Shown here one piece after another: positions 3,256 to 8,503 of a DNA stretch of 64,000 nt (position 1 is its first letter; every line of letters begins with the position of its first letter). Made by a program: the position numbers and the translations under genes. The stretch comes from Nosocomiicoccus ampullae (GTDB taxonomy: Bacteria; Bacillota; Bacilli; Staphylococcales; Salinicoccaceae), in contig NZ_CP079110.1 of assembly GCF_019357495.1 (NCBI RefSeq), forward strand, positions 1,054,001 to 1,118,000, read 5' to 3'. The notes below the pieces were generated by a model. The model was not told the DNA's origin. It worked only from the letters and a program-made list of their open reading frames with translations, and did no database searches.

Positions 3256-3343
3256 ATAAATCATCCTTAGTAAATTCTCAATCACAATTATACAAGATAA
3301 CAGATGATTATACATTTTATTTTAAAAATTTGATAAAAACCTC

Positions 3344-3372
3344 TTGAAATTATTTATTCTTTTGTGTAATAT
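3344..3372 (+). promoter_or_regulatory. Promoter of the tRNA cluster
   Basis: -35 TTGAAA (3344-3349), exact 17-nt spacer, -10 TAATAT (3367-3372), 30 bp before tRNA-fMet. Confidence 0.75.
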
Positions 3373-3401
3373 ATTATTCAGACGTTAAAAATTTACATTA
3401 A

Positions 3402-3474
<73 letters not shown>

Positions 3475-3484
3475 TTTTTTAATG

Positions 3485-3560
3485 GGTCCCGTGGTGTAGC
3501 GGTTAACATGCCTGCCTGTCACGCAGGAGATCGCGGGTTCGATTCCCGTCGGGACCGCCA
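3485..3560 (+). tRNA. tRNA-Asp (GUC anticodon)
   Basis: Acceptor GGTCCCG/CGGGACC, discriminator G, anticodon loop CTGTCAC, CCA encoded. Confidence 0.97.
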
Positions 3561-3584
3561 TTAAATATATAATAGTATAAACTA

Positions 3585-3660
3585 GGTTCTGTAGCTCAGT
3601 TGGTAGAGCATCTGACTGAAGATCAGAGTGTCGGCGGTTCGATTCCGTCCAGAACCACCA
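3585..3660 (+). tRNA. tRNA-Phe (GAA anticodon)
   Basis: Acceptor GGTTCTG/CAGAACC, anticodon GAA, CCA encoded. Confidence 0.97.
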
Positions 3661-3664
3661 TTAT

Positions 3665-3738
3665 GGCGATTGTGGCGAAGTGGTTAACGCACCGGATTGT
3701 GGCTCCGGCATTCGTGGGTTCGATTCCCATCAGTCGCC
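3665..3738 (+). tRNA. tRNA-His (GUG anticodon)
   Basis: GTG anticodon. An eight-base-pair acceptor GGCGATTG/CAGTCGCC includes the extra G-1 identity base paired with C73. CCA not encoded. Confidence 0.95.
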
Positions 3739-3747
3739 CTTCTCTTT

Positions 3748-3821
3748 GCGGGTGTAGTTTAGTGGTAAAACCTCAGACTTCCAATCTGATGTCGGGAGTT
3801 CGATTCTCCTCACCCGCTCCA
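3748..3821 (+). tRNA. tRNA-Gly (UCC anticodon)
   Basis: Acceptor GCGGGTG/CACCCGC, discriminator T, anticodon TCC, CCA encoded. Confidence 0.96.
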
Positions 3822-3828
3822 TTATTAT

Positions 3829-3900
3829 TCCGCAGTAGCTCAGTGGTAGAGCTATCGGCTGTTAACCGATCGGTCGTAAGTTCGAATCTTACCTGCGGAG
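3829..3900 (+). tRNA. tRNA-Asn (GUU anticodon), second copy
   Basis: Body identical to the minus-strand copy at 2296-2370 but without encoded CCA; it runs straight into tRNA-Glu after 4 nt. The two copies form an inverted repeat around the nuclease and five tRNAs. Confidence 0.97.
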
Positions 3901-3904
3901 CTTT

Positions 3905-3976
3905 GGCCCCTTGGTCAAGCGGTTAAGACACCGCCCTTTCACGGCGGTAACACGGGTTCGAGTCCCGTAGGGGTCA
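3905..3976 (+). tRNA. tRNA-Glu (UUC anticodon)
   Basis: Acceptor GGCCCCT/AGGGGTC with one G-U pair, anticodon TTC, T-arm GTTCGAG. No encoded CCA. Confidence 0.96.
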
Positions 3977-3981
3977 TTAAA

Positions 3982-4005
3982 AAGGTTGTTCATAAGAACA
4001 ACCTT
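3982..4005 (+). terminator. Terminator inside tRNA cluster
   Basis: Stem AAGGTTGTT/AACAACCTT, 6-nt loop, then ATTTTTAT. It separates the seven-tRNA transcript from the last tRNA-Ser, which is 25 bp downstream. Confidence 0.75.
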
Positions 4006-4029
4006 ATTTTTATATTTAATATTAATTTT

Positions 4030-4117
4030 GGGTAGGTGGCCGAGTGGCTGAAGGCGCACGCCTGGAACGCGTGTAAACGGCAACCCCGTTTCAAGGGTTC
4101 AAATCCCTTTCTACCCG
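4030..4117 (+). tRNA. tRNA-Ser (GGA anticodon)
   Basis: 88-nt class II tRNA with acceptor GGGTAGG/TCTACCC, anticodon loop CTGGAAC (GGA) and a long variable arm. Discriminator G, no CCA. It lies beyond the cluster terminator, so it depends on read-through or its own promoter. Confidence 0.95.
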
Positions 4118-4193
4118 TTTTTTAAAAGTATCAGTAACTAAATGGCTTTCTTATAGGTTTTATAATGCAATTAATATTTCTAAATTTATTTTT

Positions 4194-4212
4194 TGCCACC
4201 AAACTGCCACCA
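4194..4212. repeat. Tandem TGCCACCA words downstream of tRNA-Ser
   Basis: Two direct copies of TGCCACCA (4194-4201, 4205-4212) in an otherwise AT-only stretch, 76 bp past the tRNA-Ser 3' end. An 11-bp offset places them on one DNA face. Repeated short words next to a tRNA 3' end can be integrase arm sites, but no integrase or att duplication is in the window. Confidence 0.3.
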
Positions 4213-4265
4213 TAAATATTTCTTTTTTCTTTTAGTATAAATGCTTTATATGTGCAATAAATTTA

Positions 4266-4337
4266 AAAAGAGTCACCGTATTACCTAGTAATTTTTACTT
4301 AATAACTAATTATTACAAAGTATACGATGGCTCTTTT
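4266..4337. terminator. Long inverted repeat, possible terminator
   Basis: AAAGAGTCACCGTAT (4267-4281) is complementary, with two wobble-type mismatches, to ATACGATGGCTCTTT (4322-4336). The outer A- and T-runs give terminator character on both strands. An inner TAGTAATT/AATTATTA pairing may extend it. Confidence 0.45.
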
Positions 4338-4368
4338 TATTTTCTTACTCAATTTTAAATATATAACC

Positions 4369-4575
4369 TGCTTTTTATCCTCTTATTTACAAATAATTAC
4401 GATCCGCATCCAAAATATGTTAAATATATCTAGTTATTTAACAAAAACCTCGCTGCTAATCATGATTATGTTAAATAAAATCATATACTTAACAAAAAAC
4501 TACCAGACGCCTATAATTCTGTTAAATAAACCGAGATATCTAACAAAGCCCAAATATTTTTGTTAATTAAATACA
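4369..4575. repeat. Palindrome array A (51-bp period)
   Basis: Three 26-bp palindromes start at 4418, 4469 and 4520, exactly 51 bp apart. Each has the form TGTTAAATA-N8-TA(T/C)(T/C)TAACA. A degenerate unit precedes them (4369-4391) and a half-unit TGTTAATTAA follows at 4561 (41-bp step). Because 51 is divisible by three, the array creates a spurious 79-codon frame with a 17-residue repeat. It lies between tRNA-Ser and the nrd terminator. Confidence 0.7.
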
Positions 4576-4581
4576 AAAAAC

Positions 4582-4609
4582 GCACCTCTTAACTAAAGTT
4601 AGGAGGTGC
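4582..4609 (-). terminator. Terminator of nrdB-nrdA
   Basis: Stem GCACCTC/GAGGTGC with inner TAACT/AGTTA pairing. On the minus strand it is followed by GTTTTTTG. It starts 10 bp past the nrdA stop. Confidence 0.85.
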
Positions 4610-4618
4610 TTTATTATA

Positions 4619-6307
4619 TTACGCTTCACAGTTAATACAAATTTTACTTAAGTTAAATTGTTGTGCAGCGTTTGTACCGTGTTGATAGTACAGTGATTTA
4701 ATACCGTTCGCCCAAGCGAATAAGTGCAGTTCGTTTAATTCTTCCGCTGTAATATGACTTGGGTTTACCATGATATTTAATGATTGTCCTTGGTCGATGA
4801 ATTGTTGTCTTGTTGATGCTTGTTCAATTACGTTATATTGGTTTAATTCACCAAATGTTTTAAATACTTCTTTTTCTTTTGCTGATAAAAAGTCTAAGTG
4901 CTGAACGGATCCGTCGTTATCACGAATGGATTTCATAATCTCTTCAGTATGCTTACCTTTTTCTTTTAATATCTCTTCAAGGTATGGGTTAATCATCGTC
5001 TTTTTAACTTTCGCTGTATCTACAACGAAGTAGTTTGACATGAATGGCTCAATTGATTTAGATACTTGTCCTAAGATGAATGAGCTTGACGTTGTTGGTG
5101 CAACTGCAAGTAATGTTGCATTACGTCTACCGTAGCCTTTAAGCATTTCTGGCTCGCCGAATTTTTCAGCAAGCTCTTCACTTGCTTTGTACGCACGTTT
5201 TCTCATGAATGAGAAAATCTGTGAGTTAATTTTATTCGCTTCAATACTTTCAAATGGAATCATATTCGCTTGTAAATATGAATGCCAACCGAGTACACCA
5301 AGACCTAATGCACGGTTTTCGACTGCGAATTTATACGCGCGTTTCATATGTTTAAATGCTGCACGTAGTTCTTCATCTTCAGAATCTCTCATAGATTCTA
5401 AGTCAGAGATAAATTCACTCATGACTGCGTCTAAGAAGTAAATCATTGTTTCTACTGCGTCAGTTTCTTTCCACTCATCATAACGTTCAATATTCATTGA
5501 TGATAAGTTACATACAAATGACCAATCTTCTTTATTTGGAAGCATAATTTCTGAACAGAGGTTAGAGTTGTTAATTGTTAAGCCTTTGTCTTTGTATACG
5601 TCTACTGTGTCATTATTTGCGTTGTCATGGAAGAAGATGTACGGATAACCCATTTGAACACGTCTAGATAATAATTTTGCCCAAGTGTCACGTTTTTCTT
5701 CGTCACCTTTAATCATTTCTTCTAACCACTGATCTGTTACAGATACACCGTGTGTGAGCGTTTGAATTGGGTTACCTTCTGTACCAATATCTAAAAACTC
5801 ATCGATATCACCGTGCTCAATTGGTAAATAAGGACTAAAGCGTCCGCGACGAACAGACCCCTGACTAATTGTATCTGTCACTTGTTCGAATAATTTCATA
5901 AAGTGAACTGAACCACTTGTATGTCCGTTATCTGTAATTTCCGAACCTCTTGGGCGAATGGCACCGAAGTATCCACTTGTTCCACCGCCGTATTTACTCA
6001 TTAACGCAACTTCACTTGCTGTGTCCATAATTGATGGTACGTTGTCTTCAATGTATGATCCAAAGCAACTAATTGATAGTGCACGTTTTTTACCGAAGTT
6101 AGACCATACCGGACTAGATAATGAGTAAAAACCTCGGCTCATATAGTCGTAAAATTTGTCTGAGAATCCATCTATATTTAAAATCTCTTCTGCTTTGTCT
6201 GCGATATTTCTAATTCTTTGTTCTGGTGTTTCACCTTCAGATAAATACCCGCGTTCTAAAAATACGCGAGAATCTTCATTCAGCCAATAAAATGGTTGTT
6301 TAGCCAA
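4619..6307 (-). CDS. nrdA: Class I ribonucleotide reductase, catalytic subunit without ATP-cone
   Basis: Reduces ribonucleoside diphosphates to deoxyribonucleotides. At 562 aa it is much shorter than usual NrdA/NrdE because the N-terminal ATP-cone is missing. Catalytic residues are all present: C81 (SISCFGS) and C266 as the active-site pair; N249, C251 and E253 in NLCSE (thiyl radical site); Y540-Y541 for radical transfer; and a C-terminal CINC pair (C557, C560). It follows nrdB by 19 bp. The staphylococcal NrdI-NrdE-NrdF arrangement is absent here. Transfer from another lineage is possible. Confidence 0.93.
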   Translation of the reverse strand: MAKQPFYWLNEDSRVFLERGYLSEGETPEQRIRNIADKAEEILNIDGFSDKFYDYMSRGFYSLSSPVWSNFGKKRALSISCFGSYIEDNVPSIMDTASEVALMSKYGGGTSGYFGAIRPRGSEITDNGHTSGSVHFMKLFEQVTDTISQGSVRRGRFSPYLPIEHGDIDEFLDIGTEGNPIQTLTHGVSVTDQWLEEMIKGDEEKRDTWAKLLSRRVQMGYPYIFFHDNANNDTVDVYKDKGLTINNSNLCSEIMLPNKEDWSFVCNLSSMNIERYDEWKETDAVETMIYFLDAVMSEFISDLESMRDSEDEELRAAFKHMKRAYKFAVENRALGLGVLGWHSYLQANMIPFESIEANKINSQIFSFMRKRAYKASEELAEKFGEPEMLKGYGRRNATLLAVAPTTSSSFILGQVSKSIEPFMSNYFVVDTAKVKKTMINPYLEEILKEKGKHTEEIMKSIRDNDGSVQHLDFLSAKEKEVFKTFGELNQYNVIEQASTRQQFIDQGQSLNIMVNPSHITAEELNELHLFAWANGIKSLYYQHGTNAAQQFNLSKICINCEA

Positions 6308-6326: not shown

Positions 6327-7673
6327 TTACTTCATGTTATTGATGTCGAGCATTCTAAGTCGAATTGTTTGGTTAACTTCTTGTTTAGATTTACTTTCTA
6401 AATCAGAATTTGGAGAGAAAATCGTATCTCCACTTACTGATTGACTAAATTTCGTGTAGTTTACACTACGTTTATGAAGGAAGTCAGTGAGTTTTGTACC
6501 GATAACTTCATCATCAAACCATGTTGTCTCAGAAACAAGTTTTTCATCAACATCAAATAATTTTTCGTAACCGACTGATACGAGTGAGTTGTTTAAACGT
6601 TGTTTAACAAACTCTTTTACAACATCACTTGACATAAACTCAAGTTCACCTTCACCTAAAATCCAGTCGATTACTTTTTCTTCAGATTCATAAGCTTCTT
6701 TACATGCTCTATAAATCGCTTCTTCCATTTCCTCATCAAACCACTGAGGTTGTTCTTCACGAATTGTATTCACAATATCGATACCAAACATACCGTGAAT
6801 TTGTTCCTCTTTAGAAGTTGCTTCGATAACGTTTGATAGTCCTTTAAACATATTTCTATGTTTGTTAAATGACATCATAATTAAGAACTGACTGAATAAC
6901 GATACGTGTTCAGTAAATAATGAGAATAAGATCATCGATAATACATATTCTCTGTCATCTTCACTTCTTGCGTACTGAACCATACGTGTTAAGTAATCGA
7001 CACGTTGTTTTAACGCAGGAATATCTTTAATTTTACTAAATTCATCATTCAGCCCTAAAATTTCTAATAAGTGACTATATGCATCCGCGTGACGCACTTC
7101 AGATTCACTAAAACTCGCACCTACCGCACCAATTTCATATTTTGGCATACGGTGATAAAGGTCACCCCAGAACGTTTTAACCGCAACTTCAACTTGAGAA
7201 ATTGCAAGCATCGAACGTGTCACTGCAGTTTTCTCGTGTGGTAAGGCACCTTGCATGTAGTCCTGAATATCTGATGTATAGTTAAATTCAGTGTGAATCC
7301 AGTAAGAGTGTCGAATCGCATCCACATAAGAATATAAATCAGGATATTCAAACGGCTTCATTTCCGCCCTTCTTTCAAAAATGTCGCGCTTTCTCTTTTG
7401 CTTTTGACGATCTCTATAAATAATATATGCTCTTGCTGTATCTTTATAATCACTCTTCAGTAAAACATCTTCTACAACGTCTTGAATATACTCAACAGTA
7501 ATAATATCTTCACTTTTCTCTAAAATTTCAACAACTTGATTTGTTAAATCATCAATCATCTCAGCCATACCCGGTTCGCCAGTTGCCTTATTGGCCTTAG
7601 ACATCGCAATTGAAATCTTATCTTTATCGAAATTCACAATTTCGCCACTACGTTTTCTAATTTGTGTAATCAA
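6327..7673 (-). CDS. nrdB: Ribonucleotide reductase radical subunit with fused N-terminal ATP-cone
   Basis: 448 aa. Residues about 3-93 form an ATP-cone (IRKRSGEIVNFDKDKI start), the allosteric on/off module normally found on the catalytic subunit. The ferritin-like domain carries the expected metal ligands E162, E192, H195, E255, E290 and H293; the first is Glu instead of the classical Asp. Y199 occupies the tyrosyl-radical position. ATP-cone-bearing NrdB is known in a few lineages (for example Leeuwenhoekiella), where it controls oligomerisation of the radical subunit. First gene of the nrdB-nrdA operon, with NrdR-like boxes upstream. Confidence 0.92.
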   Translation of the reverse strand: MITQIRKRSGEIVNFDKDKISIAMSKANKATGEPGMAEMIDDLTNQVVEILEKSEDIITVEYIQDVVEDVLLKSDYKDTARAYIIYRDRQKQKRKRDIFERRAEMKPFEYPDLYSYVDAIRHSYWIHTEFNYTSDIQDYMQGALPHEKTAVTRSMLAISQVEVAVKTFWGDLYHRMPKYEIGAVGASFSESEVRHADAYSHLLEILGLNDEFSKIKDIPALKQRVDYLTRMVQYARSEDDREYVLSMILFSLFTEHVSLFSQFLIMMSFNKHRNMFKGLSNVIEATSKEEQIHGMFGIDIVNTIREEQPQWFDEEMEEAIYRACKEAYESEEKVIDWILGEGELEFMSSDVVKEFVKQRLNNSLVSVGYEKLFDVDEKLVSETTWFDDEVIGTKLTDFLHKRSVNYTKFSQSVSGDTIFSPNSDLESKSKQEVNQTIRLRMLDINNMK

Positions 7674-7765: not shown

Positions 7766-7823
7766 ATACAACATATTGTGTTTATTTCTTTGTAAACCTT
7801 TTATTTAGCACAATATATAGAGC
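7766..7823 (-). promoter_or_regulatory. Pair of NrdR boxes upstream of nrdB
   Basis: Minus-strand reading of 7781-7766 gives ACACAATATGTTGTAT, 14 of 16 matches to the NrdR consensus ACACWATATWTDGTGT. Plus-strand 7808-7823 reads GCACAATATATAGAGC, 13 of 16. The boxes are 42 bp apart, four helical turns, a spacing typical of NrdR pairs. A TATAAT lies between the proximal box and nrdB. No nrdR gene is in the window. Confidence 0.7.
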
Positions 7824-7918: not shown

Positions 7919-8503
7919 CTAATATACACTAAAATCAAATTGCTGCATATGTTTAAAATATTCGTGTCGTTTATATTCATCTAACATTAAGCTTTCTTTC
8001 AGAGAATACATCGATCTTTCTTTAAGTTCAGATTCTCTATAAAAAGCTTCACGCTTTAAACTCATTTTATAAAACAACTTCATAGCGTTCGAGTATTGTC
8101 GATCAAACTGATAATAACTCACTTCCACTAAAAATTCTTCTCCGTTATAAAAATAAACTTTTGTCGAACTACCCTCTTTCTCATAATCTTTGATATGTCG
8201 AATATTAAACCAAAGATTATATGCATTACGATCTGAAAACAGAGGGAAATAAATATAACTACCGAAAAAATCAATCATAATTGGTGGTTTAGAAATAATA
8301 TTTGTCATATCTTTAGTCATTGCTTTTCTATGTATATAGTTAGAAGAAAACCTTAGACAATTCTCCTCCATTAACTTGTTAACAGACTTATTAATTTCAT
8401 ATTCCTCACCAGTAATTTCTTTCGCAACAGACATTTTTGTATTAAAGTAACTATCGGAAATAATGTACATTGTGTTTTTGTTAATTGTATAATAGCTCTT
8501 CAT
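7919..8503 (-). CDS. comK: Competence transcription factor ComK
   Basis: DNA-binding activator of late competence genes. 194 aa, the usual ComK length. Shared family blocks: CLRFSSNYIHRKAM, then the characteristic SKPPIM, a W-x3-H-IKDYE segment (WFNIRHIKDYE) and a VSYYQFDRQ block. The gene stands alone with its own terminator and an AT-rich divergent upstream region shared with the tetR operon. It appears intact, with no frameshift. No late com genes are in the window. Confidence 0.88.
   Translation of the reverse strand: MKSYYTINKNTMYIISDSYFNTKMSVAKEITGEEYEINKSVNKLMEENCLRFSSNYIHRKAMTKDMTNIISKPPIMIDFFGSYIYFPLFSDRNAYNLWFNIRHIKDYEKEGSSTKVYFYNGEEFLVEVSYYQFDRQYSNAMKLFYKMSLKREAFYRESELKERSMYSLKESLMLDEYKRHEYFKHMQQFDFSVY

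Follow-up and report, generated by a model that had tools for sequence, protein, structure and literature searches.

Ribonucleotide reductase is essential. How did Nosocomiicoccus, a genus close to the staphylococci, come to depend on a reductase that differs from the class Ib NrdIEF of staphylococci and of the other genera in its family? The window that we analyzed is a 64,000-nucleotide stretch of the genome of Nosocomiicoccus ampullae (contig NZ_CP079110.1, positions 1,054,001 to 1,118,000), and it contains nrdB followed by nrdA on the minus strand, with 19 bp between them (Table 1). Our reading, to which we give a probability of roughly 0.83, is that a phage-derived, self-regulated, and NrdI-independent manganese reductase from a relative of the Twortvirinae replaced the ancestral nrdIEF and came under the control of the host's NrdR. 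The initial annotation of these genes had already suggested replacement by transfer; to this we add a probable donor (the Twortvirinae), the status of the operon as the sole reductase, the sites of insertion and of nrdIEF loss, and candidate sites for NrdR.

Table 1. Features of the nrdB-nrdA locus, with positions in the window.
Feature	Position	Strand	Description
tRNA array ending in tRNA-Ser(GGA)	3402..4118	+	flanks the insertion on the left; genus g5 has the same array at its empty site
nrdA 3' flank, non-coding	4119..4618		no readable phage-gene remnant; three palindromes spaced by 51 bp
nrdA	4619..6307	-	NrdAi-type class I catalytic subunit, 562 aa, without ATP-cone
nrdB	6327..7673	-	448 aa, TTG start; ATP-cone at aa 4-91, class Id radical-generating domain at aa 103-376, C-terminal extension at aa 420-448
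NrdR-box-like site 2, ACACAATATGTTGTAT	7766..7781	-	42 bp from site 1, upstream of nrdB
NrdR-box-like site 1, GCTCTATATATTGTGC	7808..7823	-	upstream of nrdB
comK	7919..8503	-	flanks the insertion on the right; genus g5 also has it at its empty site

Judged by sequence, nrdB-nrdA encodes a class Id (NrdAi/NrdBi) reductase with an N-terminal ATP-cone on NrdB, which is a previously described subclass (PMC5794259, PMC6754362). As initially annotated, the radical subunit begins with a complete cone (Pfam ATP-cone, E = 2.1e-22), which precedes a Ribonuc_red_sm domain (E = 1.9e-58), and the catalytic subunit lacks one: a domain search of NrdA shows the barrel and all-alpha domains only. The annotation also described the cone as having moved from NrdA to NrdB. 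The cone is indeed on NrdB, but because NrdAi/NrdBi is a described subclass, the move was not a local event in Nosocomiicoccus; nrdB already carried the cone when it arrived.

The class Id signature is a glutamate as the first metal ligand, a lysine at +4, and a tryptophan at +7 (PMC6754362). When NrdB is aligned to the protein from Leeuwenhoekiella blandensis, these are E162, K166, and W169. E162 aligns with Glu170, the first metal ligand of L. blandensis, so the annotation was right to read this ligand as Glu rather than Asp. E192, H195, E255, and E289 also match, as do the tyrosine at the radical position (Y199, corresponding to Y207) and a conserved threonine (T286, corresponding to T294), which would hold the tyrosine by a hydrogen bond. 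The best solved relative of NrdB is the L. blandensis NrdB with its ATP-cone (PDB 5olk; E = 5.7e-154), and the top fold matches of a predicted model of NrdB (mean pLDDT of 75.6, which is modest) are 5olk, 6sf5, 8dq3, and 6cwo, all of them class Id. NrdA belongs to the NCBIfam class NrdE-prime (TIGR02510). Its residues C81, N249, C251, E253, C266, Y540, and Y541 are invariant among the aligned homologs, and it has a CxxC at the C-terminus (557-560). The contrast with class Ib NrdEF that had been drawn holds: none of the three Nosocomiicoccus genomes has NrdI, and NrdB scores just 49 bits against the NrdF model, which has a cut-off of 355.

The residues of L. blandensis NrdB that make the dATP-induced contact between cones and the contact with the gamma-phosphate are known (PMC5794259). 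In the alignment, D73, I92, I93, R95, and R102 of L. blandensis correspond to D65, I84, I85, R87, and R94, and there are two conservative changes (K89 to R81 and M80 to L72). Because the class Id residues and the NrdA residues are retained and the cone residues are kept or conservatively substituted, we infer a manganese-based reductase that dATP switches through NrdB. A dimanganese cofactor in the core of NrdB would store an oxidizing hole and pass it to the active-site cysteine of NrdA. The cone would act as the activity switch: ATP would permit the active alpha2-beta2 form, and dATP would push NrdB to assemble into tetramers and larger complexes that are inactive. The manganese cofactor and the switch on NrdB are well founded by analogy with work on L. 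blandensis and Facklamia ignava; tetramerization is known for the homolog and would be expected here.

The domain arrangement and the metal site are already known from the crystallized L. blandensis enzyme (PDB 5olk, 6sf4/6sf5; PMC5794259, PMC6754362, PMC8350387), so what is new is the history. That enzyme is like ours in having the cone on NrdB and not on NrdA, in the conserved cone residues, and in identical metal-site and signature residues, but L. blandensis is a member of the Bacteroidota, it has a class II reductase as well, and its NrdB stops at the DDLF motif. NrdB from F. ignava, another firmicute, is also of class Id and also has the cone (PMC6187632, PMC6754362), but it has an additional N-terminal glutaredoxin domain, which is missing from Nosocomiicoccus NrdB.

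nrdBA is the only reductase that we found in the three Nosocomiicoccus assemblies. The N. ampullae genome (1.55 Mb, 99.56% complete) encodes one protein with PF00268 and one with PF02867, and a search of the genome found no NrdI and no NrdD; neither a second full-length NrdA nor an NrdIEF operon, which would have undercut the initial annotation, is found elsewhere in it. Its only two ATP-cones are in NrdB and in an apparent NrdR encoded by a 154-aa ORF. The two congeners are represented by draft genomes (86% and 93% complete), and neither NRDD nor NrdI was found in either. In contrast, all 30 of the other genomes from the family that we searched have one large-subunit gene each as well as NrdI, and the six loci that we read out are nrdIEF. 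A 2018 paper stated that all species with an NrdB of the NrdBi type with an N-terminal cone also encode other reductases. Nosocomiicoccus departs from this, although this describes the genomes and is no part of how the protein is defined.

Where did the operon come from? Within the genus, the nearest named relatives by NrdB are Candidatus N. stercorigallinarum (98% identity) and N. massiliensis (94%). The closest relatives outside the genus are staphylococcal phages of the Twortvirinae. A search of 50,697 phage records gave 62 matches to NrdB with at least 60% identity; these matches cover 99-100% of the protein at 63-65% identity, and the phages among the matches listed are all staphylococcal or from Mammaliicoccus. 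NrdA is 80.3% identical to that of Baoshanvirus PSU4. When viral contigs were scanned with NrdA, only two loci were recovered. Phages and Nosocomiicoccus share the gene order (nrdB, then nrdA). Also, among ~170 loci, an extension of NrdB by 23-29 residues beyond the DDLF-type end is found only in Nosocomiicoccus, the Twortvirinae, and the phage contig L113, whose ORFs next to the nrd genes look phage-like by eye only. (The divergent DELF3 has a 35-aa extension.) Seeming C-terminal extensions in several Flavobacteriia and at two other loci (L028 and L173) proved to be tblastn read-throughs past stop codons and were discarded. We also set aside plasmid relatives, which have only cone-less NrdB proteins at 56% identity or less.

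The Twortvirinae loci (from Silviavirus, Sciuriunavirus, and Baoshanvirus) thus resemble the Nosocomiicoccus operon in gene order, domain layout, C-terminal extension, and highest identity. They differ in having a thioredoxin or oxidoreductase gene nearby, in that no NrdR-like boxes were found, and, in Silviavirus, in an interrupted nrdA; the Nosocomiicoccus operon, on the other hand, is chromosomal and is the sole reductase found. A literature search, with subscription papers outside its scope, returned no paper on the Nosocomiicoccus reductase and none that reports transfer from phage to Nosocomiicoccus.

The initial annotation had proposed a phylogeny of NrdA and NrdB as a check, and our trees place Nosocomiicoccus inside a phage clade. 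In the NrdB tree, Nosocomiicoccus, the Twortvirinae, and contig L113 form a clade (support 100/99) within which Nosocomiicoccus and the Twortvirinae group to the exclusion of L113 (90/66). The next branches are phages (L115, the Sporosarcina phage Lietuvens, L116, and L117), followed by metagenome-assembled genomes (MAGs) of Erysipelothrix and Clostridiales. The NrdA tree, which does not include L113, groups Nosocomiicoccus with the Twortvirinae (100/100), and a concatenated tree separates these two from L113 (99/96). Forcing the phages into a clade without Nosocomiicoccus in the concatenated tree costs 11.3 log units (AU test, p = 0.055); because of this p value, the nesting that polarizes the transfer rests partly on L113, whose NrdA is partial. 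Transfer from phage to host is strongly favored but not proven. The GC content of the operon (36%) and its GC3 do not stand out, so we dropped composition as a sign of transfer.

The genes might instead have moved in the other direction: a host like Nosocomiicoccus could have obtained NrdAi/NrdBi from another bacterium, and an ancestor of the Twortvirinae could have taken the genes from that host. The moderate single-gene support for the nesting, the lack of L113 from the NrdA tree, the AU result, and the MAGs just outside the clade leave some room for this scenario. But L113, Lietuvens, L115, and L116 branch around Nosocomiicoccus plus the Twortvirinae; the operon is common to three genera of phages; and no other genus of the family has it, the site being empty in the sister genus. 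We consider the reverse direction to be unlikely. Still less probable is independent uptake, in which the phages and Nosocomiicoccus each acquired the operon from an unsampled bacterial donor. Most bacterial species are indeed unsampled, but across the 84,980 bacterial and archaeal species scanned, matches outside the genus reached at most 60% identity and the best bacterial ones have C-termini that stop at the DDLF motif, whereas the extension is common to phage and Nosocomiicoccus, whose NrdA proteins are up to 80% identical. NrdA was not found (E ≤ 1e-80) in any of 398 other Bacilli genomes sampled.

Both the gain and the loss are visible in the chromosome, as judged by synteny across targeted stretches. 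At the empty site (genomes G006 and G010), comK adjoins a tRNA array that starts with tRNA-Ser(GGA), without nrdBA; in the window, nrdB and nrdA stand between exactly these neighbors. As for the old reductase, the relatives that we examined have the gene order recQ, eamA, nrdI, nrdE, nrdF, lipoprotein, SDR, fecCD, with some variation: eamA is absent from L205, and in L206 and L207 riboflavin-type genes separate nrdF from the lipoprotein gene. In N. ampullae and one congener (G002), the cluster is kept and nrdIEF is missing; in N. ampullae, the gap between eamA and the lipoprotein gene is 175 bp. A six-frame reading of the 500 bp 3' of nrdA found no readable remnant of a thioredoxin gene, an oxidoreductase gene, or another phage gene, and neither site shows other recognized phage genes. 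Kinship with phage genes could also reflect contamination of the assembly or a recent prophage, but this is scarcely credible, as the operon lies within a 1.55-Mb contig, comK-nrdB-nrdA recurs in the assemblies of three species with NrdB proteins that are 94-98% identical, no further phage gene was recognized in the flanks, and no other reductase is left to supply dNTPs.

Near both sites are imperfect AT-rich palindromes of the form TGTTAAATA-N10-TATTTAACAAA with a period of 51 bp (window positions 4418-4545; L220 positions 5100-5180; L221 and L222). One location is 3' of nrdA; the other, close to where nrdIEF was lost, is between recQ and eamA. Among the loci fetched, they are found only in Nosocomiicoccus, and 100 shuffled versions of the window each yielded fewer. 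The recQ-like gene by the loss site (L210; G000:C1:227234-229003) aligns across one TAA stop in N. ampullae but not in its congeners, which may reflect the end of the match only. At the other flank, window positions 3327-3421 match the Staphylococcus sRNA S774 in Rfam, barely over the cut-off, and overlap the start of tRNA-Met.

The two NrdR-box-like sites upstream of nrdB are conserved as a pair in all three Nosocomiicoccus genomes: relative to nrdB, they lie at -150 and -108 in the window, have the same positions in Ca. N. stercorigallinarum, and are one base further away, at -151 and -109, in N. massiliensis. One of the N. massiliensis sites is perfect and is the only site without mismatches listed for that genome. 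However, the window is AT-rich, and four sites with up to three mismatches to the consensus were found in it versus 2.6 expected by chance. Because such sites are common by chance, the evidence for the boxes is limited to their conservation, position, and pairing. The criterion for the NrdR regulon is two promoter boxes an integral number of turns apart; the nrdB sites are 42 bp apart, and single sites are likewise common by chance. Binding of NrdR at these candidate sites is putative. Eight phage loci had no NrdR-like boxes within 1 kb. NrdR-like boxes are also found upstream of class Ib nrdIEF: the nrdI promoters of relatives have one or two box-like sites, about 32 bp apart when paired. The difference in spacing suggests that the nrdB boxes are not a simple carry-over of the old promoter.

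Under the transfer from phage to host, a relative of the staphylococcal Twortvirinae (Herelleviridae) would have been the source of the operon, which would have inserted between comK and the tRNA-Ser array in the ancestor of Nosocomiicoccus. It would then have come under NrdR control, letting the NrdI-dependent nrdIEF be lost. A genus-wide replacement with both the deletion and the insertion in view is a clean natural experiment in the takeover of a central function of the host by a phage gene. It would also leave a manganese-dependent, NrdI-independent, and activity-regulated type of reductase as the only source of dNTPs found in a bacterium close to the staphylococci. Because no back-up enzyme was found, Nosocomiicoccus offers a cell in which to test what an ATP-cone on NrdB is worth physiologically.

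The C-terminal extension of NrdB is predicted, with low confidence, to contain a helix (430-446). Our tentative speculation, which we would not bet on at even odds, is that the extension acts on NrdA as a new docking or regulatory element, and that a reductase derived from a lytic phage became the sole route to dNTPs in a cellular lineage, which would thereby have gained an off-switch by dATP and freedom from NrdI.

The phage genes themselves are varied. In Silviavirus (L111 and L196), nrdA is broken in at least one place, and the Romulus locus has annotated homing-endonuclease genes; in Nosocomiicoccus, nrdA runs without interruption. In Baoshanvirus Golestan101-M (L197, positions 4367-4641), nrdA retains only residues 6-45 and 515-562, which could be an internal deletion or an error in the record. 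The staphylococcal phages ESa1, Safa, Staph1N, and phiIPLA-RODI (H84-H87) have large subunits with only ~22% identity, of which two carry the annotation class Ib and a third NrdE, so the class of reductase varies among the staphylococcal phages.
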